Virus record (IMG/VR): IMGVR_UViG_3300032524_000094
Location: 1-34,261 of that record
Direction: 5' to 3' (one strand)
DNA: 34,261 bases
DNA from: a virus
In this document: positions 9,001 to 33,726 of the stretch, in pieces
How the letters are laid out: each line of letters opens with the position of its first letter
Numbering within the stretch: position 1 is the first letter of the stretch
The notes under the pieces: model-generated
The model's input: only the letters and a program-made list of their open reading frames with translations
Database searches by the model: none
What the model was told of the DNA's origin: nothing
Position numbers and translations under genes: made by a program

Positions 9001-11864
9001 GAAACCTTGCCGTCATCAGCGACCTTGCGGCGGATCAGGCCGTTGGTTGTGGAAACGCCACCAGCCGTTGACCGGACGCCGTTCTTGACCGACTTGATCG
9101 TGACCTTTGGGAAACCATACTTTTTGGAATAATGGTCAGCAATGCCTTGAAGGCTCTTCGTCCCTGCCTGATCGTAAATGCGCTGGACCGTGGAATCCCA
9201 CATCAAAGCCCGGATCTTGTTTTTCGGGATCTGGTGGATCTCTTCCTTGGTCATCTGCCAAGGCTCTTTATCCCCGGCAACCTCAGGGGCGGGCTCGTCC
9301 CAGTTAAAGGCATTCCGGATATCGTCCTCAGAAAGTCCCTCCATTTCCGTTTTGAGATCTGATTCTCCGCCTTCGGGCGGCTCTGGCTGATCGCCGGCAA
9401 CCGGGGCAACCGGCTCGCTCTCCACCTTTGGCTTTGTGGGGGGTGTCGAGGTAGGCTCGACGGGAGGCTCCGTGGGCTTCGGTTCCGGGGGTAGGGGCGT
9501 TTCCGGGGGTAGGGGCGTTTCCGGCTCTGGTTCCGGCTGCACCTCAGGCTCGGGTTCCGCACCCAGCATCGCGCCGGTTTCCGGATCAAAGAATTCCGGG
9601 CGGAAAGGCTTGGTCTGATCGCCGTCTTTCAGCCACGCCTTGAAATCATCCATGGAGATCTTCGTGATCATCCCAGCCCGCGCGGGGCCAGATCCATCGC
9701 TGAACGATCCGGCATAGGTTTGCTTGACCGTATCCTCGTCTGGGAATCCGAGCATCACCTTATGCTCGTCAAACTTCTGGGATTCGGGATCAATCTGATC
9801 AATCACCCAGAGATCCGGGCTTCCGGGGTTTTCACCGAAATAGATATCAACCTGATCTCCATCGGCTCCCTCGGTGCGTTTGACATACCCATAGTGCGCG
9901 GGCATCTCGACGGACCATTTGGGCTCATATCCTTCCTTGCTCGCGCGGATTCCGCCCTTCGGCGTCTCAATGGAAATATCAAGGCCGCGCCACTGAACGT
10001 GACCCTTCTTATAATTCCCTGCCGCCTTTTGCGGATCCGTGGGCTCGGGCTCGGCTTCCCCTGCCGCCGCATCAATGGCCTCAGGTTCAGGATCGGGTGT
10101 AGTCGGAGCCTGAGGGGTTGCCGGCGCTGGCCCAGTGGGGGGAGGCGATCCCGGGCCTTCGCCACCCTCAGGCTCCTCGACCGGGGCCAAAGGCTCCGGT
10201 GTTTCTGTTGCTCCGGGGAGAACATCCGGATCAAGCGTTATTGGAGTCCCGGGGGGATATTGAGGTCCCGGTGGTGCGGGCGGGGGCTCATACAGAGCGC
10301 CCGGAGCGGGGGGAAGCGTGACAGGTGTTCCGCCCGGAGCGGCGGGCTCGGGAGTGAGGATGCCACCTTGCGGCGGGATCTCGACCGGGGGGATAACCTC
10401 AGGTGGGATCACTAGGCCCGTGTCAGGGTCGATATTTGGAGGAGGTGTAGCCGCTCCCGGGGTTCCCACCCCACCCGGGGCCGTCGGAGGAACTTCGCCC
10501 TCTACGGGCTTCTGTGGGGCTGCAGCGGCATCTTCTGCTCCCGGCTCCTTCTGAATAGCTGGACCGGCCCCAGACATCGGACCAAGAATGCCGCCCGTCA
10601 GGAATCCGATTGCCATGTTATTGACAATCTCCATCCACGTTTCATACGTGTTAAAGTCGATATCCGCCTTGTATGCCTGAGCCCACTTGGAGATGGCTTC
10701 CTGCATACCTTCGGTGATGCCTTCCGTCGTAGCGCCCTTCGCTATGCGCGCCGCTACGGTTTTGATCAAGCTCTTCTTGAGGGCGGCAACCGGAGCCTTT
10801 GTGAATGCTCCTATCAAAGAGCCAATACCAACGATGTCGAGCGCGGCCATCGGAATAGCCGTCAAGGTGGCTGCATCGCCAATTTCTTTTTTCGTGACCT
10901 TACCGGATTTTAGCTCCTTTGCCAGCGTCTCCTTAAACCCCTCGTGGGCATCGCCAAGGTTCAGGATGTATGACGGTCCAGCCGCGCCAAACACCGCCCC
11001 ATACGGGCTCTTGGTAATAGCCATACCGGCCATGCCTGTTACCAGACTTGGCACGGTGGATGACAATCCTTGGCCCGCGCCATAGGCGGCGAAGTTTCCG
11101 AGGTCTTCAAAGAAGTTACCAATGGAATCCGTCCGGATATGCTCAAGGCCAGCAACCTTCGGAGCGTAATCCTTCATCTCCTCACGGCCATACGCCGCTA
11201 TCTCGCTACCAAATACCGAGAGGTCTTCGATGCCGAGGGAATTGCCTATGGCTTCGAGGCTGCTGCCGAACATTAACGGATTTTGGGCAATCGAACCGCC
11301 GACGAAACCTTTATAAAGCTGGCCGTCTTCCTCTTCTTCTTCCGGGGCTTTCGCCGGGGCCTTATCAATATCGAATTGATCGAAGTAATTGCCGCCCGTG
11401 CTGGCGTCCGCAACCTGAATTTCACCAGACTGCACGGCCTGACCTTGGGCAACCGGAAGCAGGGACTTCAAATAGTTCTGTGTTTCGCGTGGAACACTGA
11501 GCGGATCTCGACCGTTGGCAATCCAATCATCAACATTCCCCGGGCCCCAGTTATAGGCCATCAATGCCAATTCAGGATCACCGTCGAACTTGTTGGCCAT
11601 GGCTCCGAGATAGTCTTTCAGGAAGCGGCGCGATTCGACCGGATCTGTAGGATCAAGCAAGGGAGCAACCCCATAACCCGGATCCATCGCCGTCTGTGGC
11701 ATGGCTTGGGCAAGCCCTACAGCACCAGCCGGGGAAACCGCGTTAGGATCCCCACGGCTTTCGATCTGGATAACCGAATCGGCAAGATCGTCGGACACCT
11801 CTGAGAGCTTCCCAGTAGTTCGGCTTTTCGCCAGCGCCGATTCAAGCTCGGTAAAGTAATTCAT
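1..11864 (-). CDS. Giant polyvalent virion protein (transglycosylase, methylase, helicase), 3' end outside window
   Basis: A single open frame of 3954 complete codons starts at the ATG at 11864, 6 nt after the stop of the upstream gene, with GGTAGGG before it. It has no stop before the left edge, so the C-terminus is missing. Domains in order: SLT lytic transglycosylase (about residues 28-125), hydrophobic segment (250-434), Pro-rich spacer, inorganic-pyrophosphatase-like domain (617-745), HEIEH zincin-like domain (975-979), N6-adenine methylase (1166-1375), Gly/Ser/Pro linker (1393-1535), SF2 helicase (1650-2450), HEIIH domain (3015-3019) and a long helical C-terminal region. Methylase followed by helicase is the layout of phage P1 DarB, which enters the cell with the DNA and protects it from restriction. 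Multi-domain proteins of this type are known as polyvalent proteins, and Bcep22-type podoviruses carry one of over 4000 residues. That it is packaged and ejected is inferred from the N-terminal transglycosylase and its place after the internal virion genes. Confidence 0.93.
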   Translation of the reverse strand, partial: MNYFTELESALAKSRTTGKLSEVSDDLADSVIQIESRGDPNAVSPAGAVGLAQAMPQTAMDPGYGVAPLLDPTDPVESRRFLKDYLGAMANKFDGDPELALMAYNWGPGNVDDWIANGRDPLSVPRETQNYLKSLLPVAQGQAVQSGEIQVADASTGGNYFDQFDIDKAPAKAPEEEEEDGQLYKGFVGGSIAQNPLMFGSSLEAIGNSLGIEDLSVFGSEIAAYGREEMKDYAPKVAGLEHIRTDSIGNFFEDLGNFAAYGAGQGLSSTVPSLVTGMAGMAITKSPYGAVFGAAGPSYILNLGDAHEGFKETLAKELKSGKVTKKEIGDAATLTAIPMAALDIVGIGSLIGAFTKAPVAALKKSLIKTVAARIAKGATTEGITEGMQEAISKWAQAYKADIDFNTYETWMEIVNNMAIGFLTGGILGPMSGAGPAIQKEPGAEDAAAAPQKPVEGEVPPTAPGGVGTPGAATPPPNIDPDTGLVIPPEVIPPVEIPPQGGILTPEPAAPGGTPVTLPPAPGALYEPPPAPPGPQYPPGTPITLDPDVLPGATETPEPLAPVEEPEGGEGPGSPPPTGPAPATPQAPTTPDPEPEAIDAAAGEAEPEPTDPQKAAGNYKKGHVQWRGLDISIETPKGGIRASKEGYEPKWSVEMPAHYGYVKRTEGADGDQVDIYFGENPGSPDLWVIDQIDPESQKFDEHKVMLGFPDEDTVKQTYAGSFSDGSGPARAGMITKISMDDFKAWLKDGDQTKPFRPEFFDPETGAMLGAEPEPEVQPEPEPETPLPPETPLPPEPKPTEPPVEPTSTPPTKPKVESEPVAPVAGDQPEPPEGGESDLKTEMEGLSEDDIRNAFNWDEPAPEVAGDKEPWQMTKEEIHQIPKNKIRALMWDSTVQRIYDQAGTKSLQGIADHYSKKYGFPKVTIKSVKNGVRSTAGGVSTTNGLIRRKVADDGKVSYDLELRQGRGEKDTVITLRHEIEHIIDAEAGFDPMTNSPVQMTKDEKGKDVFTVIGGHHNHFGLFNWEYPHRILVRDAIEAGLPVPDEVLADYPELAKGVEEIPENAPGEYGSPARPDVYRLAESFEKDFSDGVAFSTITKARKKISDLVGGEVDPEIANEAIEFGAVMAARKIAKRQSGGEDATFERLRKLYEEQMPRLEARSSRRITRQQFSTPLPLAYIASRLAEIEPGKSILEPTAGHGALLIEADPDRNDVSANEIDPLRLDSLKRLGFDTSNFNAANVIFGKEDTDVVVMNPPFGKVTTETGGNATFEGVPGIKKTEEIDHAIALKSLESLKKDGKAVILIGTKRGRDGTGNSYGGFKHAGFYKYLYDNYNVVDHFVTDGSMWQRQGAAFPVDVIVIDGRGRSTLAYPGFEAPPLVDSFEELRGLLNGERINQSVRPGSDAVPGGVSTGTSGGEGSAGNQEPETSGPQGASVTSDTRPDNGGSGGSEAAPIPVRRPRGGTPESGSGVSGNVGGRLVSDEPEGAGGDESPVGGPEAETGEPGGGEGGGRPEPTVLAPTGGTSGDGEPVKPTIQQGIDDFLGGLYGPETTEITEGETSSGEDHSVNEAEDYYKKILPGLIRSYEIAVDNKNTLSEWAGMLRDSIQKRNVDSAERARFAAAALQFALNIRSGKIIIETASTPAPEVEAVDPDAERIRIRKERKKSELESATQVDYISPSGIESQPLLVPRNQQTASDLASARLVEELRKQPRYANIKDNHQIIDQYVADELGLSLDDIKNDGLFMGHQIHAVAAAIQNFHEGGALVIGDQTGAGKGRVVAAMIMFAKKNGMTPVFVTQQPGLYTDMYRDLNDISWLDFDALISNNGMTGKNALKLPARATFNETYGQRTLATPKNQQQIFDDILATGKIPKGFDAMFTTYTQLQTVGGGNIPVRAHVIERLMSEAFLILDESHEAGGTQEKRPEPGKRARSEFVRELVEAAKGVMYSSATFAKNSTAMSLYSRTNLRLAVSDIKNLGPILDAGGLPVEQIISSMMAEDHQYLRREMSFKGISIPNVIVPIKDESAESSAALTREIFEFDEALKPHLERWAREKAAEEGFRTIEGKVSNPTHTGFASLMHNITSQALLALKAESAADLAIKRWKEEGVKPILTMSNTMGTFLHDYIEENGLNKEGASIEDLNFNAIFSRYLEKTREVTIKDPVTKIAKKLKMSEADIGNFAGDSVLRRYQNARDAIESEDLSDLAVSPIDTILQKMRDAGMTVDEITGRQFVVNYGEEKINKRETSASSKIDLINNFNSSGDENLDGLIINRSASAGISLHASVKFTDQRPRLMIVVQPEADINKHVQILGRINRTGGVEGVKPLYAVLVADLPAEKRPLAIHAAKLAKLNANTTAAKESDITQEVPIDIWNAIGAATVLEYLNNNFKVVAALDLDVYDLAAEDPIKAMAKVTGRLALLPVRQQRETSWGEALPSQEQFWNDIIEQYEFKIAQAEAMGENILEAQTQDLNAVSLTQSQLTKKKDSNSVFASAAYLEKMEVDKIILPMTDEHMTQEMKFFLEKALAPVIRQLTPEEEAMEGEGGISLSDRIPVKVPEDRAGIERASEVYTNQILEEMRAREDVYRKSDIENRKKYEDDLQKERAKDSVDANVISELQKKITRINERIRTRNNTGQKIKDQLLRTPVGSAITLKILERKGQPAVPSLEGVVLEIRYKPKRDPLAFGAFEVRLALLNGESTTMIVKFNQLLSALGSPEPAMELVHSRLSYESMAERMEAGRGITRVERMMITGNMIAGYEQLGMVGKFIFYTTAEGDIRPGVLLPVNFGPQQLQLLPAKLYTADQIVRFLNETGRVVVQSSEGTVKLSRTREGLYHIVIGAKSGKGIIKNPKIIDTFGKYDHTTGGKKLSSTTRHSKKIYQGDAESVGSFSKGVSLLIDSYQLAFETQQNKDVARKITGDPDPGASTTRIEMGGNTAVVRDATAMRQVEFTQAFMGDKEKITSKLKTIFKDLAPSAKVSLVGDLFLSDEAGESKVDGAYNAFNNMIYVALNYGDPTVAARHEIIHFLREMNFFTKGEWAALEAKAKEWRKIYKIDELYPGKTESQKIEEAIAFGFGQFKQGKPFPPGFRRIFEKIRKLLQRMANTFRGMGYVTYEDIFAKVESGEMGRRESPGRRGAYDIKAQKPSGETLTAQEQAHLDEMGEMIGSPPRTLRQKLSDFISSDITARLTQGVLDDLHGLKLAEMAANAGKLYEDARSAYKLARLSRGINDVIFDALYFGAPVWREGTTAIDTTVKAPMQILEELGNRAPDFEKYLAARRAAELSEQGKEKLLQERHIEAGMALERIYPDFKGLAQDIYDYNSSLLDFVQASGLIDQETRALFEEMHQNYVPFWRVMENAHGKGQKARMGFSGQHPNFFRIKGSDRNIERPFINLERNIQRLIEASVKNVVMLRLEQMNAQIGGVIMTQIGKKAKPALVTNKQMVDDLGAQGLEITPGDNVDPKMLRVLWSLGHAPKGPNMVSLVKGGRPTYYQVEDPLLFRSLTMLRRDDIPWIKPLKMAKHLLTTGVTATPSFQVANFTRDTVHAAVVSHIGFKPGIDSIKGFKSTMMKDPSFREFMQAGAGMSALLEADNPTMHRVVEKSLEKGGKKASGTIIDSSRGFIGALERILSTFEYSTRVGAFKKLRNEGVPLIEAAYQAREISTDFAMRGEYGIVRFFADVVPFLNAGVQGLYRTKRGASENFTSFMLKGSILAAASILLYLDNRDDERYKALNQHERDLYFHIFVGKDGHYKIPKPFEVGAFFGSIPERLVEAAIEKDGEVLAERLGWIFTEMFRLDLVPQALKPIRRVTANWDEFRERPIVPHWLEQKVRPEDQYDSRTPLVAIEAGRLAKYSPKKIEALVNGYLGSWGAYLMVAADQSLMGMGNYPEKPSMPWYEYPVMRRFVGKGIPYSTRYLTEFYEMRDEANRLYGSMQHLIAQGEVERAQQLIRGNATPLAMRK
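3..2300 (-). other. Long helical C-terminal region of the giant protein
   Basis: Residues of about 3190-3954 are mostly predicted-helical in appearance, with many Arg, Glu, Leu and Ala, plus short hydrophobic stretches such as MLKGSILAAASILLYLD. There are no nucleotide-binding or catalytic motifs that I recognise. Similar C-terminal regions in giant phage proteins are catalogued as large polyvalent protein-associated domains; the match to a specific one is from memory and tentative. The frame is still open at the left edge. Confidence 0.5.
2640..2960 (-). other. Domain: second zincin-like (HEIIH) module of the giant protein
   Basis: MIYVALNYGDPTVAARHEIIHFL has HEIIH at residues 3015-3019. 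About 45 residues later comes KIEEAIAFGFG, whose EExxA could supply the third zinc ligand as in gluzincins. This is a more complete metallopeptidase pattern than the first HExxH in the same protein. Its place after the helicase suggests self-processing or cleavage of a host protein after entry, but no substrate can be inferred. Confidence 0.65.
4400..6850 (-). other. Domain: strawberry-notch-like SF2 helicase in the giant protein
   Basis: Residues of about 1650-2450 carry a complete superfamily 2 set. Walker A is VIGDQTGAGKGR (1766-1775), Walker B is the DESH box in FLILDESHEAGG (1908-1911), a motif III-like VMYSSATFAK follows, and the C-terminal motif VI is QILGRINRTGG (from 2305). The GDxTGAGKGR form and the SAGISLHA...QRPR...GRINRTG block are typical of the strawberry notch group, which also occurs in phage and plasmid polyvalent proteins. 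In P1 DarB the helicase follows the methylase in the same way. Confidence 0.88.
7280..7702 (-). CDS. Possible gene nested in the +1 frame of the giant gene
   Basis: A 140-codon frame starts at the ATG at 7702 with a good ribosome site (GAGAGGG, 7 nt spacing) and stops with TAA at 7280. It lies wholly inside the giant gene, shifted by one nucleotide. Unlike the Arg/Ser/Pro-rich shadow frames elsewhere, this product is balanced and globular-looking: acidic, rich in Leu, with Trp, Tyr and Phe, for example LLLRIHDLIMEDPEEARPLL and VKAVDDLSLLYWLRLVEQA. No signal peptide or membrane segment is seen, and I do not recognise the family. Over the same bases the giant protein is only a low-complexity Gly/Ser/Pro linker whose codons often end in A or T, unlike its other spacers. 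That is what one expects if this frame is the selected one. The G-ending codons here can partly arise from G at giant-frame first positions, so the evidence is suggestive, not proof. Confidence 0.55.
   Translation of the reverse strand: MANESTNQSAPDLMLYPEGYPPELLGVKVPQGTKSLKPRDHKEHLLLRIHDLIMEDPEEARPLLYQFVDHEEEHLNLDREFPETWAGDLFQTSQRVRAAMNLLWEDRKLKRASPEEVKAVDDLSLLYWLRLVEQAATESL
7740..8369 (-). other. Domain: DarB-like N6-adenine DNA methylase in the giant protein
   Basis: Residues 1166-1375 contain the gamma-type N6-adenine methylase elements in order. QQFSTPLPLA is the usual lead-in, EPTAGHGALL (from residue 1192) is the SAM-binding motif I, and VVVMNPPFG is catalytic motif IV with NPPF at 1252-1255. 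DRNDVSANEID lies between them. The family methylates adenine N6 in DNA. With the downstream helicase this is the arrangement of the P1 antirestriction protein DarB. All catalytic residues are present, so it may be active. Confidence 0.88.
8820..9260 (-). other. Domain: first zincin-like (HEIEH) module of the giant protein
   Basis: The stretch TVITLRHEIEHIIDAEAGF (HEIEH at residues 975-979) is an HExxH zinc-binding helix preceded by a beta-strand-like segment. This is typical of zincin metallopeptidase domains found in polyvalent proteins. It lies just before the methylase. A likely third zinc ligand is not obvious to me, and the substrate is unknown. Confidence 0.55.
9483..9524 (-). repeat. 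Short tandem repeat, 18-bp unit, about 2.3 copies
   Basis: The unit ttccgggggtaggggcgt occurs at 9483-9500 and 9501-9518, and a third copy begins at 9519. On the coding strand it gives the repeated peptide PETPLP inside the Pro/Glu spacer between the pyrophosphatase-like and metallopeptidase-like domains. A multiple of three keeps the frame open, so copy number can change without breaking the gene. Confidence 0.8.
9630..10016 (-). other. Domain: inorganic-pyrophosphatase-like module in the giant protein
   Basis: Residues 617-745 contain MPAHYGYVKRTEGADGDQVDIYFG. The DGDQVDI stretch from residue 668 is one residue away from the soluble inorganic pyrophosphatase signature D-[SGDN]-D-[PE]-x-D-x, because the Pro/Glu is Gln here. 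IPPase-like modules are known parts of phage and plasmid polyvalent proteins. Pro/Glu-rich spacers flank the module on both sides, which marks it as independently folding. Whether it still hydrolyses pyrophosphate cannot be told from sequence. Confidence 0.6.
10565..11110 (-). other. Domain: glycine/alanine-rich hydrophobic segment of the giant protein
   Basis: Residues of about 252-302, 328-373 and 408-434 form long stretches dominated by Ala, Gly, Ile, Leu, Val and Met, for example LSSTVPSLVTGMAGMAI and MAALDIVGIGSLIGAFT. They could be membrane-inserting or amphipathic helices, which would fit a protein that helps form the DNA entry channel right after a transglycosylase. This is inference from composition only. 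Confidence 0.5.
11490..11783 (-). other. Domain: SLT lytic transglycosylase at the N-terminus of the giant protein
   Basis: Residues 28-125 match the soluble lytic transglycosylase fold (SLT, goose-lysozyme-like). The catalytic glutamate is E35 in QIESRGDP, followed by the family signature AVSPAGAVGLAQAMPQTA and, further on, LALMAYNWGPGNVDDWI. Such enzymes cut the MurNAc-GlcNAc bond of peptidoglycan. At the start of a virion protein the usual role is local opening of the cell wall during DNA entry, as with T7 gp16. Confidence 0.9.
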
Positions 11865-19656: not shown

Positions 19657-21234
19657 TCATCTCGCCGTTCCCATCCCAACCATGATCGCCTCGAAAACCG
19701 TCTTTGGTTCGATTGCCGCCGCGCATATTGATGCTCCGGTCCCGGGATCTTCCGGGCAAAACTCTCGGGAATAATGCATCCTGTGGCACGGATAACAGGC
19801 TACGCTTTTCGGTTCGATTGCTTGGGTGTTTAACCAGCCTTCCGTCAAATTCTTTTGAGAGGAGTGAGAGAGAAGAACCACTTTTGGTGTTTTCAGCATG
19901 GACGCGGAATTGAGTACCCCTGTTTCCGGCCCCACCACACAATCGGCAACTTCAAGGAAGGCCAGCGTTTCCCTGATATCCCATTTGCCGGACTTCAAGA
20001 ATATACGGCGCTTGCCGTTGAAATGCTTTTTCAGTTTATTCACGAGCTTTGTCGGCGTCATCCCATCGGATTCCTCAGGAGGAATGTGCATGAACCTATG
20101 CGCCATCCCTTGGAGAATAGCCGCTTCAAGCAAACTGCTGCGGGCGTCTCCGACAAACACAATCTTGGCATCCGAATGCTCCAAGATCCACGCCGCGGCA
20201 ATGTCACTCCATGGCCACGCCTTATGGACGCTGGATCCTGCCAAGCTCCATACGATGACCTTCTCGTTTCCGGCGATCTCGTCACGCCACGCCTTTGCTT
20301 CCTTTTGCTCTGCGGGCGTCGGATAGAAGCGGGGCTCGCGCACGAATGGAACCTCTGCAAGCTCGTGCTGGAATTCAAGATAGTTGATGTTCAGGATCTT
20401 GTGGCGGGCCTGTTTCGGCATATGGTAGGTGCGCCGCCCGGGAAGAGCGAGAAGGGTTCCCTCAACAGACTCGCTCAGATTAACAACCTTGTCATACTCT
20501 TTCCCGAGCGCCGCCCAATATTCCTGCAGCCGTTCGTCATTCGGAACCTGATCGGTGTCCTGAATAAGAAAGCCATCTACGTTGGGATCGTGCTTGAGGA
20601 GGTGTTCGCCACGCGGCGTAGTATTTACAATCACGCGGTAGCCTTGCTCTTTGAGGCCCGGGAATATACTGGACGCTTGGATCATATCCCCGATGCCGCC
20701 GTACCTGATCACGAGGCATTTAGGCTCTTCCCCTGCATCTTGGTATGAGAAGGTGTGTTCGACGGCGCTGGTCTTTTTGTAGACTTGAATAAACCCATAT
20801 TCATCGCCCTCGGTGCGGATCTGGTTGACTTCGAGATCCCAGCCAAAATGCTCTTCCATCAAGCTGGTGATGTCTTCCGGCTTGAAGTCATGCTTATGGT
20901 TTGGATATGCCGCATCGGATCCAACTCTGGGATAGTGATTTTGGTGTGGAAGGTGGAGAACCAGATAGCCGCCATCCTTTATCTTCGCCCACCAGTTCTT
21001 GATCTCGCGGGCCGGATTCTCGACCGTGTTCAGGAAAAACGAGGAAAACACAAAATCAAGAGCCCCCTCTGCATAAACCTCTAACTGGTGTTCAACAAAC
21101 ACCGGCTTAAAATGGGGCCATGTCTGGCGTGGAAAATCACTCACCTCCACGCCTATTCCACGAGTGTAGGGAACAATCAAATGTTTGATCGCCTCAACCT
21201 CTTGTCCTGCAGACTTTCCGTGATCCCAAGTCAT
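19657..21234 (-). CDS. Fusion: methyltransferase-like domain plus GT9 heptosyltransferase-like domain
   Basis: 525 residues from the ATG at 21234, whose ATGA overlaps the stop of the upstream glycosyltransferase gene, with GAAGGGG before it. Residues 1-153 look like a class I SAM-dependent methyltransferase (GIGVEVSDF, LDFVFSSFFLNTVENP, IKDGGYLVLHLPH), although the glycine-rich motif I is degenerate. From residue 172 it is a glycosyltransferase family 9 protein: CLVIRYGGIGDMIQASSIFP, then VIVWSLAGSSVHKAWPW, and CVVGPETGVLNSASMLKTP for nucleotide-sugar binding. GT9 enzymes add heptose to lipopolysaccharide core. Such a fusion in a phage could modify a virion or host surface glycan; the substrate is unknown. 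Confidence 0.82.
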   Translation of the reverse strand: MTWDHGKSAGQEVEAIKHLIVPYTRGIGVEVSDFPRQTWPHFKPVFVEHQLEVYAEGALDFVFSSFFLNTVENPAREIKNWWAKIKDGGYLVLHLPHQNHYPRVGSDAAYPNHKHDFKPEDITSLMEEHFGWDLEVNQIRTEGDEYGFIQVYKKTSAVEHTFSYQDAGEEPKCLVIRYGGIGDMIQASSIFPGLKEQGYRVIVNTTPRGEHLLKHDPNVDGFLIQDTDQVPNDERLQEYWAALGKEYDKVVNLSESVEGTLLALPGRRTYHMPKQARHKILNINYLEFQHELAEVPFVREPRFYPTPAEQKEAKAWRDEIAGNEKVIVWSLAGSSVHKAWPWSDIAAAWILEHSDAKIVFVGDARSSLLEAAILQGMAHRFMHIPPEESDGMTPTKLVNKLKKHFNGKRRIFLKSGKWDIRETLAFLEVADCVVGPETGVLNSASMLKTPKVVLLSHSSQKNLTEGWLNTQAIEPKSVACYPCHRMHYSREFCPEDPGTGASICAAAIEPKTVFEAIMVGMGTAR

Positions 21235-22409
21235 ATGACGCCATCCCCTTCCATGATGTTCAGAAGCGTCGAAACTGACTTCCCCCAACTCCATTTATGC
21301 CGGAAGCTCAATGAGTTTTGCTCCGCAACGGATCTCACGGAATAATCGCTATAAACGCGCTCAAGAGCTTCAACGGCCTCTTCGACGCTACTTTCCCCCC
21401 ATCCCTCAGTTCCCTCGTAATGAGAGGACGCCGGGACAGTATCTTGATCGTGTAAAATGATCGGGCCATCATCCAGCAAATCCAGATGCCCGGTGTTTCT
21501 GGATATGATCGTTGGGATCCCCATCCCGAGACATTCCATCGCCACCATGTTTGTCGAGGCTTCGCACCTGTTGGTAAACAGGGCAACATCGGCCTCGCGA
21601 TATATCAGGGGCGTCGAAACGTGGGGCATCAACTCAAGGACTTTGAAGCTGTCAGGGAGAAGCCCGTTGTCAGTAAACCAACCCTGAATATCAACCTTGC
21701 CGTCCAACTGTGTCGGATTCCCCTTCATGTGTCCGCCAAGGTCTAGCTCAGTCACCCAATCGGGCCAGCACGATTCACATGCGGCCAGCAAAAAGGCGTC
21801 ATCGTGGCGCTCGTGGAATATCTTGAAGGCGGCGAGGGCGATGTCCTGTCCCTTTCTGAAAGACAATTGACCGCCGATAAAGACAACGAACCTGTCTCGC
21901 CAAACACCGCTCGGCGGCATGGGCATAAACAAGGTGTCGTCAATCCCTTGGTTCCACAGGCCAACGTTTTCGATGCCGTTATTCTTAAAGGTTTCCAGCC
22001 CCCAATTGCTCCCCGTGAGAATCCTCACTTGCTGGGATATGTCACGAGCGACCGGATGAAACTTCGTCGTCTCTGAATATGCGAGGCCGTAGGTTCTGCC
22101 GGGAGAGAAATAATGGGCGTTGCTCGTGACGCCGCCGTTTCCAATCGAAAGAAGGAGCGGTATATCAATCAGCGCCGCGCCGTTTTCCGGCATTTCGATT
22201 TGAGTGGCGAACTCGTCGCTCCGCCTTATGGTGCTTTCCATGAGGGCGGCGGTCATCGGACTGAAAATCGCGGTGTCGCTGGGTGGGAGCAACAAAGTGT
22301 CGATACCGTCCACATTCTCCAAACCCAAGGACAAATGAATGGCAAGATTCCCCCACCCGCTGAAATCGCAAGGTTGCCAATCAATGCCTATGTGGACGGT
22401 ATCTTTCAT
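21231..22409 (-). CDS. GT4-type glycosyltransferase (GT-B fold)
   Basis: 392 residues. The C-terminal Rossmann half carries the usual family landmarks: FVVFIGGQLSFRKGQDIAL (residues 174-192) at the start of the nucleotide-sugar domain, and ADVALFTNRCEASTNMVAME followed by CLGMGIPTIIS (273-303), with two glutamates spaced as in the E-x-E donor site. The N-terminal half begins IGIDWQPCDFSGWGN, a normal acceptor-domain start. The ATG lies 2 nt after the stop of the preceding gene, so translation is probably coupled. It lies next to the GT9 fusion and near a DUF115 gene, forming a small sugar cassette inside the virion genes. Confidence 0.88.
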   Translation of the reverse strand: MKDTVHIGIDWQPCDFSGWGNLAIHLSLGLENVDGIDTLLLPPSDTAIFSPMTAALMESTIRRSDEFATQIEMPENGAALIDIPLLLSIGNGGVTSNAHYFSPGRTYGLAYSETTKFHPVARDISQQVRILTGSNWGLETFKNNGIENVGLWNQGIDDTLFMPMPPSGVWRDRFVVFIGGQLSFRKGQDIALAAFKIFHERHDDAFLLAACESCWPDWVTELDLGGHMKGNPTQLDGKVDIQGWFTDNGLLPDSFKVLELMPHVSTPLIYREADVALFTNRCEASTNMVAMECLGMGIPTIISRNTGHLDLLDDGPIILHDQDTVPASSHYEGTEGWGESSVEEAVEALERVYSDYSVRSVAEQNSLSFRHKWSWGKSVSTLLNIMEGDGVI

Positions 22410-22411
22410 TT

Positions 22412-22786
22412 TTACAGCGCCGCCTTGATCATCGCTTGCATATCGCCCTTCGATGTCCCGACCGGAATTTTCTTGCCGCCTGTCACGGCCCCATAACGCG
22501 CCCTCAGTTGTTTCATCGTGACCTCCTCCAACGGCTTGTTCTCGGGGAGGCTTCCATCCGCTCCGGGCTGTTCCGATGCTTCCGGAACATTCGGCTCGGA
22601 TTCTTCAAAGTCGGCATCGACAATCTCTTCGACAACTTCTTCGGTCGGCACTTCCTCAACATCTTCGGGAAGCGGCCTGATCATGTATCCGGCCCCATCA
22701 TACCCGCGACCATCTTGCTCGTAGCGGATATCGGTAACCCCGTAGACCGTTCCGTAGGACTTTTTCCAATCAATCTTCTTAGCCAT
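22412..22786 (-). CDS. Small acidic protein, first gene after the terminator
   Basis: 124 residues with AAGGAAC upstream of the ATG. The N-terminal part, MAKKIDWKKSYGTVYG, is followed by a highly acidic, disordered middle (residues 38-80, mainly Glu, Pro, Val, Asp). A compact C-terminal motif follows (MKQLRARYGAVTGGKKIPVG then KGDMQAMIKAAL), which looks like a short helix-loop-helix of the HeH/LEM or SAP type. That likeness is weak. It starts the segment downstream of the strong terminator. Confidence 0.7.
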   Translation of the reverse strand: MAKKIDWKKSYGTVYGVTDIRYEQDGRGYDGAGYMIRPLPEDVEEVPTEEVVEEIVDADFEESEPNVPEASEQPGADGSLPENKPLEEVTMKQLRARYGAVTGGKKIPVGTSKGDMQAMIKAAL

Positions 22787-22806
22787 TTTTCATGTTCCTT
22801 CCGTAG

Positions 22807-22842
22807 AAAAGTGAGGGGAGGGAGGTTATCCCTCCCCTTCAC
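22807..22842 (-). terminator. Strong Rho-independent terminator
   Basis: On the minus strand GTGAAGGGGAGGGA pairs with TCCCTCCCCTCAC around a 5-nt loop, with one bulged A. The stem is 13 bp and is followed at once by TTTTCT. It lies 22 nt after the stop of the 67-residue gene and 20 nt before the next start. This is the only convincing terminator in the window and divides the late genes into two transcription segments. Read-through or a promoter hidden in the upstream coding sequence must serve the genes beyond. Confidence 0.85.
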
Positions 22843-22864
22843 AGGACTCATTGCCGGCGCTGGC

Positions 22865-23068
22865 TTACTTGAAGTGGAACGACTTGCCCTTGCTGGAACA
22901 GGTCGTATCGCCCTTCATGCCGCCGTCGTCGGTGTAACCCAACTCGTGAGAAAACGGGCCTTTCGGCGCGTCATTGAGTTCGGTCGATTTGTTGGGGTTT
23001 TTGGTCATCGCGGCTTTGACACCGCCCGGACCATAGGGACCGCCACTTTTTGCTTTACCGTATTCCAT
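22865..23068 (-). CDS. Small Gly/Lys-rich protein of unknown function
   Basis: 67 residues, with AAAGGAG before the ATG at 23068. It is rich in Gly, Lys and Ser (EYGKAKSGGPYGPGGVKAAM at the start, SSKGKSFHFK at the end) and has one cysteine. No domain is recognised. It is the last gene before the terminator in a run of small proteins downstream of the capsid gene, a place where phages often keep decoration or head-completion proteins. Confidence 0.68.
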   Translation of the reverse strand: MEYGKAKSGGPYGPGGVKAAMTKNPNKSTELNDAPKGPFSHELGYTDDGGMKGDTTCSSKGKSFHFK

Positions 23069-23073
23069 AACAG

Positions 23074-23244
23074 TTACGCTCCTTTCTTCTTAAAGCCTGT
23101 CTTGAGGTCGGATTCGTCGCATTCCTGCAACGACTTGTCGAGAGAATATCCCGGGCGGTAAGAAGCGTCGGAATATCCTTCGCCGTCCATATCGGACGGC
23201 TTGTTGCGGGCCGACTTGTCAGCGCCGCTCTTTCCTTCGGCCAT
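23074..23244 (-). CDS. Very small Lys/Asp-rich protein of unknown function
   Basis: A 56-residue frame (MAEGKSGADKSARNKPSDMD at the start, TGFKKKGA at the end) runs from the ATG at 23244 to the TAA at 23074. GGAAAGGAA lies before the start. It fills the space between its neighbours, with the stop 6 nt before the next ATG. The AAAGGAG ribosome site of the next gene is formed by its last codons. It is hydrophilic with one cysteine, and no family is recognised. Confidence 0.68.
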   Translation of the reverse strand: MAEGKSGADKSARNKPSDMDGEGYSDASYRPGYSLDKSLQECDESDLKTGFKKKGA

Positions 23245-23247
23245 GGC

Positions 23248-23541
23248 CTAGTTCCTTTCCACATCGGTTTTGTGAAGGGGGCGTCTGACAAAGCCGAATT
23301 CGCCAATATCCCCGTGCTTGCGGCGGAAACCATCCGGTTCAATCATGCCGGCGTGGAGTGTCCCGCCTTCGACCCTTTCCATATCGCCATTCTCGTCCCA
23401 CTCGTAGGCGATGGTGGGATCAAGCTTGCCCTCGTAGTTTCCCACGGGGGCGGCGTCAAAATGGCCGTCTTCGAGATCGCCGTCGCTGACATCAAGATAG
23501 CCAAGGTCAGCGTCTCCTAAGGTTTTTTTGGTATCACTCAT
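23248..23541 (-). CDS. Small acidic protein of unknown function
   Basis: 97 residues, with TTGAGGT directly before the ATG. The first half is acidic (LGYLDVSDGDLEDGHFDAAP), and the second half is mixed with several Gly, Arg and His. No signal peptide, membrane segment or catalytic motif is seen. It begins the group of three small genes (97, 56 and 67 residues) ahead of the terminator. The order suggests a virion accessory role, but nothing in the sequence proves it. Confidence 0.7.
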   Translation of the reverse strand: MSDTKKTLGDADLGYLDVSDGDLEDGHFDAAPVGNYEGKLDPTIAYEWDENGDMERVEGGTLHAGMIEPDGFRRKHGDIGEFGFVRRPLHKTDVERN

Positions 23542-23589
23542 ACCTCAATCCTCGTCTTTGCCGCCAACCATTGACGGCGATTACCCCGC

Positions 23590-24507
23590 TCAGGGCGGGG
23601 AATACTCAGCCCTTGGGAACTTCGGTTTTGTATCCCCAAAGGCTTTGATCAGATGGGATGTCAAGCTGTCGCCATGAACAACAACCTTATGCCCCGGATA
23701 TTCGTCAAAATACTCCAACATCTCGACCGCCTGAGACGCAAGCCCGGGCTCCGAGAAGAACGTCCGACCATCGTCGGTTTCAATGATTGTCCAATCACCG
23801 TCGGTCTGCATACCGACATCCTCAAGGACGCTCTCGTAAGCATAAGTCTTTCCGGTATCCGCATCGAAGCAACTGTCCATCGCGTAATATTCAACCCTGC
23901 GGAAACCGAGGATATAGGACATGCAGACGAAGCGAACGCCTACGGTGGATCCGCCCCACACATTCTGTGGAGGTGGATCCCGCACCAACCTTGCTTCCTC
24001 CTCGCCTTCGACTCCGCTCGGGGTGTGGGTGATAATAACCCGCTTTCCTTTCAGGGCATCGAAGACCCCGGGCATACATTGCGTGGACACAAAATAGATT
24101 GTCCCGCTGTTGGCCCGGTCGAGAGATTGCTGAACGTATTTAAGGGGATCCATCAGGACGCAGCCCCACGGGATCACGCCATGGTCGAGAAGGTAATTAT
24201 AGGTGAAGTTGCTGGTAAAGATATTAACCGAAGGATCTTTCGACCGTTCAATAATTTCATCAATGTGTTTTGGCAAAGAAGGACCGCCCGCAACAAATAT
24301 TGCGGTGTTGTCGTGAGGAAGCACCGGCAGAAGAACGGGGAACCTCTGTCTGATATTGGTCTTCATGTGAGCCAACAATTCATCATCAGGGCGCGCGTTC
24401 TTATGCACGAAAACGGGTTTTACCCAGCTTCCATCCTCGGAAGGGGCCGCGCCCCGAGAAGGGAGCGCGGCTTTTCCGATCAGCCCATTATGAGCTTTGG
24501 ACTGCAT
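23590..24507 (-). CDS. DUF115 / MptE-like protein
   Basis: 305 residues from the ATG at 24507, which overlaps the preceding gene by 20 nt and has ACAGGG 10 nt upstream; an ATG at 24537 is an alternative. TAIFVAGGPSLPKHIDEI (GGPSL at residues 74-78) is the signature of DUF115, the Rossmann-like family that includes archaeal 6-hydroxymethylpterin pyrophosphokinase MptE and bacterial proteins linked to glycan or flagellin glycosylation. Further typical pieces are FTSNFTYNYLLDHGVIPWGCVLMDP and YILGFRRVEYYAMDSCFD. Given the two glycosyltransferase genes nearby, a role in glycan transfer is likelier than pterin synthesis, but this is inference. Confidence 0.75.
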   Translation of the reverse strand: MQSKAHNGLIGKAALPSRGAAPSEDGSWVKPVFVHKNARPDDELLAHMKTNIRQRFPVLLPVLPHDNTAIFVAGGPSLPKHIDEIIERSKDPSVNIFTSNFTYNYLLDHGVIPWGCVLMDPLKYVQQSLDRANSGTIYFVSTQCMPGVFDALKGKRVIITHTPSGVEGEEEARLVRDPPPQNVWGGSTVGVRFVCMSYILGFRRVEYYAMDSCFDADTGKTYAYESVLEDVGMQTDGDWTIIETDDGRTFFSEPGLASQAVEMLEYFDEYPGHKVVVHGDSLTSHLIKAFGDTKPKFPRAEYSPP

Positions 24508-24862
24508 CAGGTTCGACCCTGTACTCATAGATGACATCGCCGCTTCCGTCGGCAGCAACATCAAACTGAGTTGTAACCCTCGACAACGAGGCAAGAGCGG
24601 TGTCGCCCAAGTCAATCGACACGGTAGCTCCAACGGCAAGAGTGCCGATGGAAACGGAGCCCACGCTGACCGCGCTCACAAAAACGCGGAAACGGCGGGC
24701 CACGTTGCTGGTCGTTACCGTGCAAACGAAGTGAGCGGCAACCAGCTTGGCCTTCTGGAACATGCGGAAAGGCGCGTAATCCGTTGCGCTTGCCGCCCCC
24801 ACCGAGCCCGCAAACTCTTCGCGGGTGACGATGACGTTCGGGTGATCATAACGAGTAGCCAT
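24488..24862 (-). CDS. Probable capsid-associated (decoration) protein
   Basis: 124 residues, with AAAGGATACAGGTC before the ATG, 26 nt after the capsid stop. The sequence is beta-rich with small residues (LVAAHFVCTVTTSNVARRFRVFV, VGSVSIGTLAVGATVSIDLG), the composition of head decoration or minor capsid proteins. The location immediately after the capsid gene supports this. No named family is recognised with certainty. Confidence 0.65.
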   Translation of the reverse strand: MATRYDHPNVIVTREEFAGSVGAASATDYAPFRMFQKAKLVAAHFVCTVTTSNVARRFRVFVSAVSVGSVSIGTLAVGATVSIDLGDTALASLSRVTTQFDVAADGSGDVIYEYRVEPDAVQSS

Positions 24863-24888: not shown

Positions 24889-25794
24889 TTAGCTTGCGCT
24901 ATCCCACTTGACAACGCGGGTCTGAGCCGCCGCCGTCTGTGTGAGGCCATAGCCGAGGAGGGCGTACCAAGCGATGCCCTTTGAGCGACCGAAATCCGTC
25001 GGGATCTTGCCGCGCATTTCCTCGGGGATCACGATGCCTTCGGCAACGGTATCCTCGCCAAAGAAGAACACCCAATCCGATTTGGCGTTGTCCCAAGCGT
25101 CGGCGGTCGAGGTCGAGGCATTCCAAGTCGTGGAATCGGCGGCACCGCCCTTGGGGATGTGCGTCTGCTCCACGAAACGGGTGTTCTCGTACCGACCAAT
25201 TTCGCCGTTGTGGATCAACGTGAAGCCGGAATCGGTGTACTGGTGGATCGTTTCAAGGTTGTTCTTGAAAGTCCGGAAGGTCGTCGGCCAGCCAACGGCA
25301 ACATAGTCGTCGTTGACATACGGCGGGATATTCCGCTCCTTCATCAGATCCACGATGCTCTTCACGTGTTCCTTGCCCATAGCAAGGTTGTTCGTGATCG
25401 TCGCCGTGCCGTCGGTGGTCAGCGTGACCGCCGCCGTATCGGTTCCGCCCGTCGGCGCAACACGCAGCAAGCACGTGTTGAACTGAGCGTGCGAGTCGAT
25501 ATCGAACGACTTTTTCGCATCGTTTTTCAGAACCTTGTGGATGATCTCGCGGATCGGCTGTTCCGAGAGGTCGTCCAGCTTACCGGAATACGGAACGCTG
25601 TTGCCGTATTCATCCACCGTCAGCGTGCCTTGCGTGATGGTGAATTTGGTTTCGGGCATCGTGGTCGTTTCGGTGAGCGTTCCACCCTGCGTTTCGACAT
25701 CCGAATACACATTCCAGTGGAAGGTATCACCCTTACCGAGCATGTTGCCCTCAGGGTTGCGGGCCTTGGTGGCGTCTTTCGCGTCACAAAAATG
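24889..25794 (-). CDS. Major capsid protein, exon 2 (residues 36-336)
   Basis: After removal of the group I intron, the capsid frame is 26585-26481 joined to 25794-24889, giving 336 residues. This exon starts HFCDAKDATKARN and continues with TLTETTTMPETKFTITQGTL, GNSVPYSGKLDDLSEQPI and a helical segment, matching HK97-fold capsid proteins of the N4 gp56 type in length and layout. Later parts are beta-rich with W and F (ADAWDNAKSDWVFFFGEDTV). An ATG at 25818 would open the same frame but adds eight intron-encoded residues and has no ribosome site, so it is not the start. Scaffold upstream and a decoration-like gene downstream agree. Confidence 0.85.
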   Translation of the reverse strand, partial: HFCDAKDATKARNPEGNMLGKGDTFHWNVYSDVETQGGTLTETTTMPETKFTITQGTLTVDEYGNSVPYSGKLDDLSEQPIREIIHKVLKNDAKKSFDIDSHAQFNTCLLRVAPTGGTDTAAVTLTTDGTATITNNLAMGKEHVKSIVDLMKERNIPPYVNDDYVAVGWPTTFRTFKNNLETIHQYTDSGFTLIHNGEIGRYENTRFVEQTHIPKGGAADSTTWNASTSTADAWDNAKSDWVFFFGEDTVAEGIVIPEEMRGKIPTDFGRSKGIAWYALLGYGLTQTAAAQTRVVKWDSAS

Positions 25795-26480
25795 CACACT
25801 GTTACCTCTGCAAATCATGCAGCGGGCCGATCATTTCTGCCGACCTCTGTACGTCGCCGCACAGATCGGATCATATCATCTGGGAGAACCAGAGTTTTCC
25901 CAGCGCAACGTGTGATCTCTGAGGGGTCAGAGTACCAACGGGCTTCCTTATCAAATTCCGCCTTCAACTCAACAAAGGTTGGGTTGTTAACGTAATCTAC
26001 CGCCAAAGTGTTGCCGCCTTTCGGCATCCCCTGAACAAACACGATCAGGTCGAGCAACGATTCAGCGAGGCTCCTCTTGTTGGCAAGGTAGGGGATTACC
26101 ATTTCGAGCAATTTCCTACCTGATCCTTGGCTTGCTATTTCGATATTCATTACAGTTTTGTAAGCCTCACCATTTTTCCCGCGCTGCTTATGGATGCTGT
26201 AAAAAAACACGATGTTCCAACACGCATAGATTCTCGAAATCTTTTCGATCATCCTTACATCCGTGTTGTTTATCCGAATTTTGGGCCGGAAGTACGGCTT
26301 TCCATTCGGGCCGGGGCGTACTTGAACGTTAAGGTTTCCCTCACCGTCAATTATCCCCGCAAGCCAAGATAACTCGACTTCCCTGCGGATTGACTGCACC
26401 GATAAATTTTCACACTTTGGTATCATCGGATCCTCAGTTATTCCCGCATATAGTTGCGTTTTAATTCCGCCATTTTGTTA
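25795..26480 (-). ncRNA. Group I self-splicing intron in the major capsid gene
   Basis: The 686-nt intron starts TAACAAAATG and ends with G, and the exon before it ends with U. P1: exon AAUUCCGU (26488-26481) pairs with guide GCGGAAUU (26470-26463), with the required U-G at the splice site. P10: AAAAUG (26476-26471) pairs with the first six exon 2 bases CAUUUU. P3: CGCAAC (26458-26453) with GUUGCG (25909-25904). P4: GCGGG (26447-26443), resembling the conserved P element, with CCCGU near 25945. P7: GAUCA (25917-25913) with UGAUC (25873-25869), in R- and S-like contexts CUCAGAGAUCACACG and AUGAUAUGAUCC. P8: UCCCAG with CUGGGA (25903-25880). P9: CCGAUCUGU with ACAGAGGUCGG. Every core helix found agrees with the same two splice sites. 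Subgroup is not assigned. Confidence 0.92.
25815..26426 (-). CDS. LAGLIDADG homing endonuclease encoded in the capsid intron
   Basis: 203 residues from the ATG at 26426 with TGAGGATCCG before it. One LAGLIDADG helix, LSWLAGIIDGEGNLNV (residues 19-34), means it would act as a homodimer. The following IRINNTDVRMIEKISRIYACW and the C-terminal helices (YLANKRSLAESLLDLIVFVQG) fit the rest of the fold. These enzymes cut intronless alleles and spread the intron. The last 40 or so residues are encoded by the intron's P6, P7, P3, P8 and P9 bases, so they may be read-through and dispensable for the enzyme. Expression is presumably limited because the frame lies between structured RNA elements. Confidence 0.88.
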   Translation of the reverse strand: MIPKCENLSVQSIRREVELSWLAGIIDGEGNLNVQVRPGPNGKPYFRPKIRINNTDVRMIEKISRIYACWNIVFFYSIHKQRGKNGEAYKTVMNIEIASQGSGRKLLEMVIPYLANKRSLAESLLDLIVFVQGMPKGGNTLAVDYVNNPTFVELKAEFDKEARWYSDPSEITRCAGKTLVLPDDMIRSVRRRTEVGRNDRPAA

Positions 26481-26585
26481 ACGGAATTTCACCATCGGTT
26501 GGACGGCCATTCGAAGCTCAGTCGAGAGCTTGTCCGAATACATGTAGCCGCCATCGGAGTTTGTACCCCAAAGTTGACCAGCCAT
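26481..26585 (-). CDS. Major capsid protein, exon 1 (residues 1-35)
   Basis: The ATG at 26585 has an excellent ribosome site (AAAGGAGAAGAGGAAC) and lies 24 nt after the scaffold stop. It encodes MAGQLWGTNSDGGYMYSDKL and on to QPMVKFR, then meets TAA at the first intron base. This is the usual N-terminus of this capsid family, where KFR is followed by a few residues and FCD. Exon 2 begins exactly with HFCDAKDA. Without splicing only a 35-residue peptide would be made. Confidence 0.85.
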
Positions 26586-30921: not shown

Positions 30922-33660
30922 CTATGTCCCATCCACAAATTGTTCAGGCTCCATATGTCCGGAACGCTCGTCGTGGCCGTCTGGATAAACGACCGGAGCC
31001 ACAGGATCCATATCGTAAATGCGCGACAAAGCATCAAGGAAATCGTCGCGCGGGGCCATGGGAAAGAATATGAACTCTTCCAGAAACTTGGATAGAACGC
31101 TGTAAACGCGGCCATCCTCGTTAACCCTCGTAATACCCTTGGCCACGAGATATTTTTGACCGCGAGAGATCGCGGTTTTTGCCGCCTTCGTTTTCAGGGG
31201 ATCTATGGGGGTGGCCTTGCCTTCCTCGTCAATCTCAATGACCTTCGGCAGGCGCAAGCGCCCCATACGGAAATCAGGCTCAAGCCGTTCAATCCTGTTT
31301 TCCTTGGAGGTGCGGCCCTCGTGCGGCCACTTCAACTCTTCCATCGGGAACGGGCAGTTTTCGATCTCCATGCGCTCTTCAAAATATTCAATGTCGGTTT
31401 GCATACCGAATTGCTCGTATCCGACGAAGACGGCCTGAACACCGGGATACCGGCTGTATTGCCGGTAAAGGTCGCGCACCGTTGTCCAGCGCTTCGAGAG
31501 CGGCATCCGGTGGCGGAGCCCGTCGATCAGATACTTGTTCCGATTGATGTCAATTGCTACAATGGCGATTGCTGTTTCATCAGAACCTTCGTTCTTCCCC
31601 TTGGAGGGGTCGATCATAATGTAAACGTTCACCACCTTTGGCCTGATCGTCCAGAACTGCAAAAGCCTGACATCGAATGTCGTCTCCGCGCCGGCAATCG
31701 GGTTTAAGAGCATCTGTGCCGCAACGGTGGACTTCGGCTGTTTGAGCTTGCGGTCCCATTCCTTCTGCGTAAGGAATATCGGCGTCCCGTCGAAGTCTCC
31801 GTTATGGGTGGCTGGGTGACGACGCTCCTCAAAAATACCGCGCTGCATCAACTGGCCATAGGTGTCGGCAAAGTGATAGCGCGTTCCGATGATCCACTGG
31901 CGTCCGCCGCGTTTCCCGAGATATTCAGACAGATCGTAGGCTTCCGTTACCTTCTTGATCATATCCGGCGTGGTCACGCTCTTCTCGGTCACAACATCAT
32001 CATAGACCCTGAGCGCATAGTGCTTGCCGGTGGGAAGGCCCTCAACCAGACCGGAAGCCTCGACCGTCGCTTCGCGCGGATTGGATTCGCGCTTGCAGAT
32101 GATGCCGTTGTCTTCGGACCAGCGGGGGGATTGCTTCTTCGGGTTTTCGTATAGGATGTCGGGGAAAATTTCTTTGAGGAGTTCGTTGTCTTCAAACTCC
32201 ATTTTGACTTGGATCAGGAACGACTTTGCCGCCTTGTTGTTGTGGGCGAAGATCCCGATTGTGACTTCCGGGTTTTTCAGGATCTCTTGGATCATCCCGG
32301 CGAACGTGATCACGGTGGAGTTGTGGGTTGTCACCATATTGCGACCCGTCAAGTAGAGGCCATCTTCTCGGTCCACCTGAATACAGCGCATAGGCTCGGA
32401 AGGAACACGGCTACAGGCCACGATAAAGCGCCTTGGATTCGGTCTTTTGCCGTCCTTACATCTCTCCAACTTTCGAGGTAAACGAAATGGCGGAAAATCC
32501 TTGTAAGCTTGGAAGGACACTTGCCAAAATGGATAGGGCTCTCCCTTATATTTTCCAACATGCCTTCTCTGTCTGGGCTTGAGGCCAAGGGTATGACATA
32601 GCTCAACGAAGCCTTCGACCAGACGATCATTCGTGTTCACGAAAGTCGCGGTCCCTCTGGTGTCGCAATGACCGTCTGTGTCCATTAAGCCCTGCAACAA
32701 CGACAATCTTTGGTCGATAGATGCTCTAAGGTAGATCGCTGGGATATGTTTGTTTCCATTGCCCAAAACACCCAACGTTTCGAGTTCTGGCCTTAGCTCA
32801 ACAATCCTACTGCATCTCGCGTTTCGCTTTGGTGATTTGTCGTGTCCAACTTCATATCCGGCGCTCTTGGCTTCTTCAAAAAACTCCGGATCTCCGCATG
32901 TAATATCAGAGTTTGCGGATGTCCCGTCACCCAACCATGCGCCCAAAACATATGGGTCAGCAGGGAGGTTTGCTTCCGGCATCTTGATAGGATCATTGAC
33001 GCGAATAGCTAACCGACCATCACTTTTATGTCCGTGCTTCGCGATGTCTTCCGTTTTCATAACAACGGTTTCACGATAAAGACGCTTCGGCCCCGGCTTG
33101 TTGTAGGCCATAGGTATCCGTTTTCTTGTCCTTCTTTCAATCGGCCATAAGTGTTCGCCACCGCATTTGATTTTGAATCCGTCGTCAAACTCGATTTCAT
33201 AACATTCAGCGTCGTCAACGATTTTGTTTAACGCAACAACCTTGCAGACCTCACCATCCGGGCCGTAGATCTGATCCCCGGGAACCAGATCCCCGTGCTT
33301 TACCCAGCCACCCGGAGTTGGAGTAGGCTCAGAAAGCTTTTGCATTTTGTAATGCTCGCGAGCCCACATGTCGATATGATCGTCCGGATCAATCTCGACT
33401 TCCCTGCAGCGGGCATAGATCCAATCGTCCCGCGCGTCTGGTCGTCGCAATAAGCATGTGAGGAGCATGTAGCGGTCGTGGCGGGCGAGCCACCGGAGGG
33501 CCTGTCGGTCGTTTCTCTTGAAGGCTCCGCGATAGATGGCCTCGCAAGCTTCTCTGGGCATAGCCCAAAGTAGCGCCTGATTGGGGTCAACCCCAGACGC
33601 TATCCCTGTCACCGTTATTGGTGACTCCTCTTCTGTTTTTTCGAGAGCGATTCCAGCCAT
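30922..33660 (-). CDS. terL: Terminase large subunit with intein
   Basis: 912 residues from the ATG at 33660; a TTG 12 nt upstream is possible but has no ribosome site. Removing the intein (residues 106-447) leaves a 570-residue protein, normal for a large terminase. Joining the two sides gives the Walker A-like WAREHYKSTVITF. Walker B is HYALRVYDDVV (548-557), and GTRYHFADTY follows as an ATPase coupling segment. The RNase H-like nuclease has VYIMIDPSKG (first Asp at 684) and ends with DDFLDALS (872-879). This enzyme cuts concatemeric phage DNA and drives it through the portal by ATP hydrolysis. The intein must splice for function, because it separates the Walker A lysine from the serine. 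Confidence 0.93.
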   Translation of the reverse strand: MAGIALEKTEEESPITVTGIASGVDPNQALLWAMPREACEAIYRGAFKRNDRQALRWLARHDRYMLLTCLLRRPDARDDWIYARCREVEIDPDDHIDMWAREHYKMQKLSEPTPTPGGWVKHGDLVPGDQIYGPDGEVCKVVALNKIVDDAECYEIEFDDGFKIKCGGEHLWPIERRTRKRIPMAYNKPGPKRLYRETVVMKTEDIAKHGHKSDGRLAIRVNDPIKMPEANLPADPYVLGAWLGDGTSANSDITCGDPEFFEEAKSAGYEVGHDKSPKRNARCSRIVELRPELETLGVLGNGNKHIPAIYLRASIDQRLSLLQGLMDTDGHCDTRGTATFVNTNDRLVEGFVELCHTLGLKPRQRRHVGKYKGEPYPFWQVSFQAYKDFPPFRLPRKLERCKDGKRPNPRRFIVACSRVPSEPMRCIQVDREDGLYLTGRNMVTTHNSTVITFAGMIQEILKNPEVTIGIFAHNNKAAKSFLIQVKMEFEDNELLKEIFPDILYENPKKQSPRWSEDNGIICKRESNPREATVEASGLVEGLPTGKHYALRVYDDVVTEKSVTTPDMIKKVTEAYDLSEYLGKRGGRQWIIGTRYHFADTYGQLMQRGIFEERRHPATHNGDFDGTPIFLTQKEWDRKLKQPKSTVAAQMLLNPIAGAETTFDVRLLQFWTIRPKVVNVYIMIDPSKGKNEGSDETAIAIVAIDINRNKYLIDGLRHRMPLSKRWTTVRDLYRQYSRYPGVQAVFVGYEQFGMQTDIEYFEERMEIENCPFPMEELKWPHEGRTSKENRIERLEPDFRMGRLRLPKVIEIDEEGKATPIDPLKTKAAKTAISRGQKYLVAKGITRVNEDGRVYSVLSKFLEEFIFFPMAPRDDFLDALSRIYDMDPVAPVVYPDGHDERSGHMEPEQFVDGT
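32320..33345 (-). mobile_element. Class 3 intein with LAGLIDADG homing endonuclease
   Basis: 342 residues inserted in the terminase between WAREHYK and STVITF. The C-terminal end is NMVTTHN followed by Ser, the standard intein His-Asn and +1 nucleophile. The first residues (MQKLSEPTPTPGGW) have no Cys or Ser at position 1. Instead it has the class 3 W-C-T set: Trp172 in GGEHLW (block B), Cys426 in MRCIQV (block F) and Thr445 in VTTHN (block G). HGDLVPGDQIYG is block A. The homing endonuclease has two motifs, YVLGAWLGDG (about 237-246) and LLQGLMDTDG (321-330), so it works as a monomer. In class 3 inteins the block F cysteine starts splicing. Confidence 0.9.
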
Positions 33661-33726
33661 CGCCTGACCCAATTTGTTGTATCAGACGCGGAGAGAATAC
33701 GCAGATCAGGTGGGTTTGTCTATTTA

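Follow-up and report, generated by a model that had tools for sequence, protein, structure and literature searches.

The major capsid gene of a podovirus-type phage is very probably interrupted by a mobile group I intron that carries a homing endonuclease gene, judging from a viral DNA stretch of 34,261 nucleotides (IMG/VR record IMGVR_UViG_3300032524_000094; hereafter the window). On the minus strand, capsid exon 1 ends with CGT at 26481, a TAA stop follows immediately at 26480, and the capsid frame is picked up again at CAT 25794, with a 686-nt insert in between. The joined exons (CCGT/CATTTTTG in DNA across the junction) encode a 336-residue protein in an unbroken frame. The first-pass annotation, which had the frame stopping after 35 codons and resuming 686 nt later, was correct to the base, and the gap-free spliced product that it proposed, KFR-HFCDAKDA, agrees with intronless relatives that read KFR-QFCDAKDA through exactly that junction. 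The features of the locus are as follows, with the basis of each in parentheses.

26481-26585, minus: capsid exon 1, 35 codons, MAGQLWGTNSDGGYMYSDKLSTELRMAVQPMVKFR (tblastn, junction of intronless relatives, purifying selection)
25795-26480, minus: group I intron, 686 nt, preceding U, terminal G at 25795 (empty site, covariation, fold z-score)
24889-25794, minus: capsid exon 2, 301 codons plus stop (profile matches, junction in relatives)
25815-26426, minus: intron ORF, 203 aa, predicted single-motif LAGLIDADG homing endonuclease, WLAGIIDGEG (profiles, predicted structure)
26463-26488, minus: P1, exon 26488-26481 AAUUCCGU with internal guide 26470-26463 GCGGAAUU (two compensatory pairs)
26471-26476, minus: P10 strand AAAAUG, pairing with exon 2 CAUUUU 25794-25789 (sequence; not conserved)
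26453-26458, minus: P3 5' strand CGCAAC, with 3' strand GUUGCG 25909-25904 (3/6 pairs changed on both sides)
26448-26444/26388-26384, minus: P4 (covariation)
26438-26435/26396-26393, minus: P5 (covariation)
26429-26423/26405-26399, minus: P5 extension, containing the ORF AUG at 26426 (covariation)
26378-26373, minus: P6 strand GUCGAG, with CUC-U-GAC 25932-25926 (complementary pairs in relatives, by eye)
25919 and 25917-25913, minus: P7 strand, G25919 plus GAUCA, with UGAUC 25873-25869 plus C25868 (three compensatory pairs versus other introns)
25903-25899/25884-25880, minus: P8, CUGGG with CCCAG (4/5 pairs changed on both sides)
25864-25859/25852-25847, minus: P9 (4/6 pairs changed on both sides)
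25845-25840/25830-25825, minus: P9.1 (counted separately from the eight-intron set)

The spliced product was recognized as a phage major head protein in a profile search (phrog_1357 at 1.7e-14), and its predicted sequence fits the model for the N4-gp56-like major capsid protein family, with a PF13252 match just above the cutoff (23.9 vs 23) and a TIGR04387 match of 47 bits, below the cutoff of 60. Capsid genes ran unbroken across the junction in 75 of the 80 relatives fetched first from viral contigs, the outcome anticipated when alignment with intronless relatives was proposed as a check, and in 165/189 of a wider set. Since the intronless alleles read KFR-QF(A/C)D(A/V/I)KD, both splice sites are fixed. 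An insert is found at exactly the same base in ten lineages: the window, L012, L052, L059, L203 (with L204, L205 and L210 grouped under it), L272, L312, L313 (with L314 and L315), L316 and L318; contigs of one lineage are not independent of one another. All of these introns end in G, as does that of the window on the minus strand, and the one in L203 is 288 nt long, without a long ORF. Comparisons between intron carriers show purifying selection on exon 1, with NG86 dN/dS values of about 0.06-0.24 among seven pairs, for two of which dS was not estimable. Because exon 1 is thus constrained, as well as conserved, and the window contains a single detected capsid gene, virion production would be expected to depend on splicing; a tie, through splicing, between cell state and the amount of capsid made is speculative, the evidence pointing neither way. 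At the same capsid site, L330 has a 36-nt insert with a TAA stop (~1769-1804) that begins like the introns (TAACAACTGGCGGAATTA), lacks the core and is possibly a deletion remnant.

The first-pass annotation had relied on P1 and P10 to fix both splice sites. Both helices pair in the window, and P1 closes with a U-G at the splice site in this and all other members of an eight-intron comparison, but P10 is not conserved: across the ten same-site introns its contiguous pairs number 6 in the window, 5 and 4 in two relatives and only 1-2 in seven. We therefore rejected P10 as independent proof of the 3' splice site, which is fixed instead by the intronless relatives. Exon 2 opens with a His codon (CAT, 25794-25792, minus strand) in just two records, the window and L003, a near-identical sister contig; Gln occupies this position in almost every other relative examined there, and the substitution lengthens the window P10 to 6 bp. 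Scanning DNA for the P1/J segment GGCGGAATTAAAAC as a pattern returned mostly chance matches and one useful relative, L136/L203.

Covariation was counted over eight same-site introns for P1, P3, P4, P5, the P5 extension, P7, P8 and P9; P6 and P9.1 were left outside this count because of bulges and length changes. Standard pairs filled 97.3% of cells, and changes on both sides were seen in 26 of the 47 pairs, a number reached by 0/500 shuffles, whereas sliding the partners by 1-3 bases reduced pairing to only 27-44%. The helices and joints had been segmented by hand from the very sequences later counted, which favors the percentage paired; the compensatory counts and slid controls are stronger evidence. 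Taken by itself, the window has standard pairs at all 47 positions, 19 of which depart on both strands from the majority state of the seven remaining introns, and none of 200,000 randomizations matched this pairing. The covariation supports P3, P4, P7 and P8, including the P3/P7 pseudoknot topology, in which P7 (25868-25919) encloses P8 and the P3 3' strand. P7 itself is GAUCA/UGAUC with an outer G-C in the window versus GACUA/UAGUC with an outer A-U elsewhere, and a P7 G-C pair (columns 113-152) with an adjoining unpaired base, as expected of a guanosine-binding site, is present in 8/8 introns. The strands of P6 are separated by most of the intron ORF; outside the formal count, relatives have different complementary pairs there by eye (GUCGAU/AUCGAC, CCACAU/AUGUGG and GUCAAA/UUUUGAC). 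Thus, the earlier claim that P3, P4, P7, P8 and P9 pair was borne out, each helix being present at the positions listed above.

The fold was also more stable than shuffled sequences, with z-scores of -7.7 for the window (20 shuffles) and -5.0 for L203. The covariance-model search of 25795-26480 suggested in the first-pass annotation had a divided outcome: Rfam at the gathering threshold gave no match in the window, the intron scoring 18.1 bits against RF00028 (cutoff 50), whereas the ORF-less same-site intron of L203 reached 70.8 bits. The low window score is likely due to the ORF between the P6 strands and to a P7 that departs from the usual sequence. With the empty site, the core-helix covariation and the L203 score, the original identification of a group I intron in the major capsid gene holds.

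Most of the intron is filled by the 203-codon ORF, which is absent from the earlier reading of the sequence. Its predicted product is an I-CreI/I-MsoI-type LAGLIDADG homing endonuclease according to both motif and modeled fold. The closest solved relatives by profile are I-MsoI (9e-13), I-CvuI and I-CreI, and the predicted structure (pLDDT 86) matches I-CvuI/I-CreI. Like the window enzyme, these proteins have a single LAGLIDADG motif, ~160-200 aa, an intron-encoded origin and the same predicted fold, but identity to the window enzyme is only ~15-18% over the structural alignment; they reside in algal organellar rRNA introns. WLAG..DGEG is invariant in 14 enzyme sequences. Against Pfam PF00961, the window enzyme scored 17.9, below the cutoff of 23.1, and its relative in L319 scored 25.7; the annotated phage collection held no close enzyme relative, giving three weak matches (best E 5e-4). 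The enzymes most closely related to that of the window (L311-L318) are all encoded within capsid genes, at the same insertion site. The DPS..TR segment of the ORF is the translation of the P6, P7 and P3 strands, and the L012 ORF terminates at the UAG of P7; the P7 swap in the window removes this stop, and the ORF therefore continues to near the intron end. Given this overlap with ribozyme helices, enzyme translation and intron folding should be mutually exclusive.

From these sequences we infer splicing in the cell, cleavage and homing. The intron RNA would fold into the group I core, with guanosine bound by P7; cleavage after CGU at 26481 would allow KFR to be joined to HFCD, releasing the 686 nt. 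Unspliced RNA would be translated into a homodimeric endonuclease of the I-CreI/I-MsoI type, which most likely would cut intronless capsid genes around AAATTCCGT/CA, whereupon repair would copy the intron in. The distribution is patchy: the ten intron carriers need 8 changes on a tree of 69 capsid proteins, six of them forced by the starred branches of the capsid tree, and the nearest capsid to that of the window (L004, 84% identical) is without this intron and has two others.

We considered whether the insert might remain unspliced, with exon 1 a leftover and a capsid protein minus its first 35 residues made from the in-frame ATG at 25818, starting at MICRGNSVHFCD. A 309-aa in-frame ORF does begin there, within the intron tail, but it would add eight intron-coded residues absent from intronless relatives, and exon 1 is conserved in those relatives and under purifying selection in carriers. 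In addition, no downstream start could rescue the mid-gene and 3' introns of relatives, and the covariation of the core helices would be left without a reason, making this explanation very unlikely. The window is a metagenomic virus record, and unrelated intron sequence could have been joined into the capsid gene during assembly or binning; such an artefact is hardly conceivable, however, given that a longer second record (L003, a contig of 46.5 kb) differs by a single mismatch across 6,903 bases, that introns occupy the identical position in nine further lineages and that the guide sequence pairs with this very exon.

A partly degenerate intron, which still splices but whose endonuclease is dead and mobility lost, is a possibility that we take seriously, although we think it distinctly less probable than a mobile intron. 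The P7 swap that removes the stop found in L012 extends the ORF into P7-P9, and the added C-terminal part is predicted at low confidence (53-75 per block), both in line with a dead enzyme, but the WLAGIIDGEG motif is intact, as are the other invariant residues, and the reading frame stays open over a length equal to that in relatives. We thus favor a mobile intron with its endonuclease. Since empty, ORF-bearing and ORF-less alleles occur at one site, the stages in the life of an intron (invasion, loss of the ORF, loss of the intron) can be tested directly in this large, well-sampled capsid-intron family, in which RNA core and endonuclease share bases.

Systematic mapping in capsid relatives placed further introns elsewhere in the gene, with insertion sites after window residues 12, 35, 61, 99, 192, 281, 297 and 315 and inside codons near 87/88 and 101/102, amounting to at least 10 sites in the capsid gene of this lineage. 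Three introns per capsid gene were found in L260 and L318, and two in L059, L220, L246, L253 and L004. Because the junction solver demanded that a U precede each intron and that the intron end in G, these two bases carry no independent weight at the other sites. Searching 50 whole contigs (2.52 Mb) with the Rfam group I model gave 15 matches, all inside the capsid gene, which is ~2% of the sequence of those contigs; this count covers introns detectable by Rfam's model, other genes may hold introns that the model misses, and the contigs had been picked for carrying this capsid, mostly on length (L203 and L204 via a query from an intron carrier). Two points are striking: how many insertion sites there are, and that a single lineage uses the capsid gene almost exclusively. 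We doubt the more far-reaching proposal that the major capsid gene is a near-exclusive home for group I introns in this lineage (10 or more sites, endonucleases of several types, as many as three introns in one gene and none found elsewhere), which would mean that capsid splicing is selected for; if true, the selection might be, for example, for a late-gene brake or a weapon against co-infecting intronless phages. With introns concentrated in a single essential late gene, one may ask why they use the capsid gene rather than replication genes, a frequent site of reported phage introns. Automatic annotation would label such capsid genes truncated or broken.

Capsid-gene introns have been documented in the mycobacteriophage LittleE, where splicing was shown by RT-PCR and N-terminal sequencing (Pope et al., 2013, PMC3706429), in Tuc2009 (PMC3706429) and in crAss-like phages, and the window intron therefore adds to a known kind. 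The LittleE major capsid intron resembles it in having ~820 nt, a U before, a G at the end and a LAGLIDADG-like endonuclease ORF (PMC3706429), but LittleE belongs to another phage/host group and its ORF is on the opposite strand, whereas the window ORF is on the sense strand, overlapping core helices, and the same-site family is large. By eye, introns of L217, L220 and L309 (residues ~99-102) also appear to have endonuclease ORFs on the opposite strand. In zeta crAss-like phages, several group I introns split the major capsid gene (Yutin et al., 2021, PMC7886860), the MCP of crAss-like phages can be in five fragments, and TerL of related phages has inteins (PMC7886860); those genomes are intron-rich in many genes, in contrast to the capsid-only Rfam matches described here. 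Multi-intron phage genes are likewise known from Twort and Bastillevirinae, as mentioned in a passage of PMC11878797 citing Landthaler and Shub, 1999.

Elsewhere in the window, the terminase large subunit ORF (30922-33672, minus strand) has an intein-like insert with a LAGLIDADG domain (~32320-33345) at the Walker A motif (..AREHYK / MQKLSEPT...MVTTHN / STVITFA). This insert seems to start with Met instead of Cys/Ser, which points to a class 3 type. A 3954-residue open frame (3-11864, minus strand) with transglycosylase, pyrophosphatase, N6-methyltransferase, strawberry-notch-type helicase and LPD38 domains encodes a giant polyvalent protein that is probably injected. Between the capsid and tail genes (19657-24639, minus strand) lie glycosyltransferase-, methyltransferase- and MptE-like genes.
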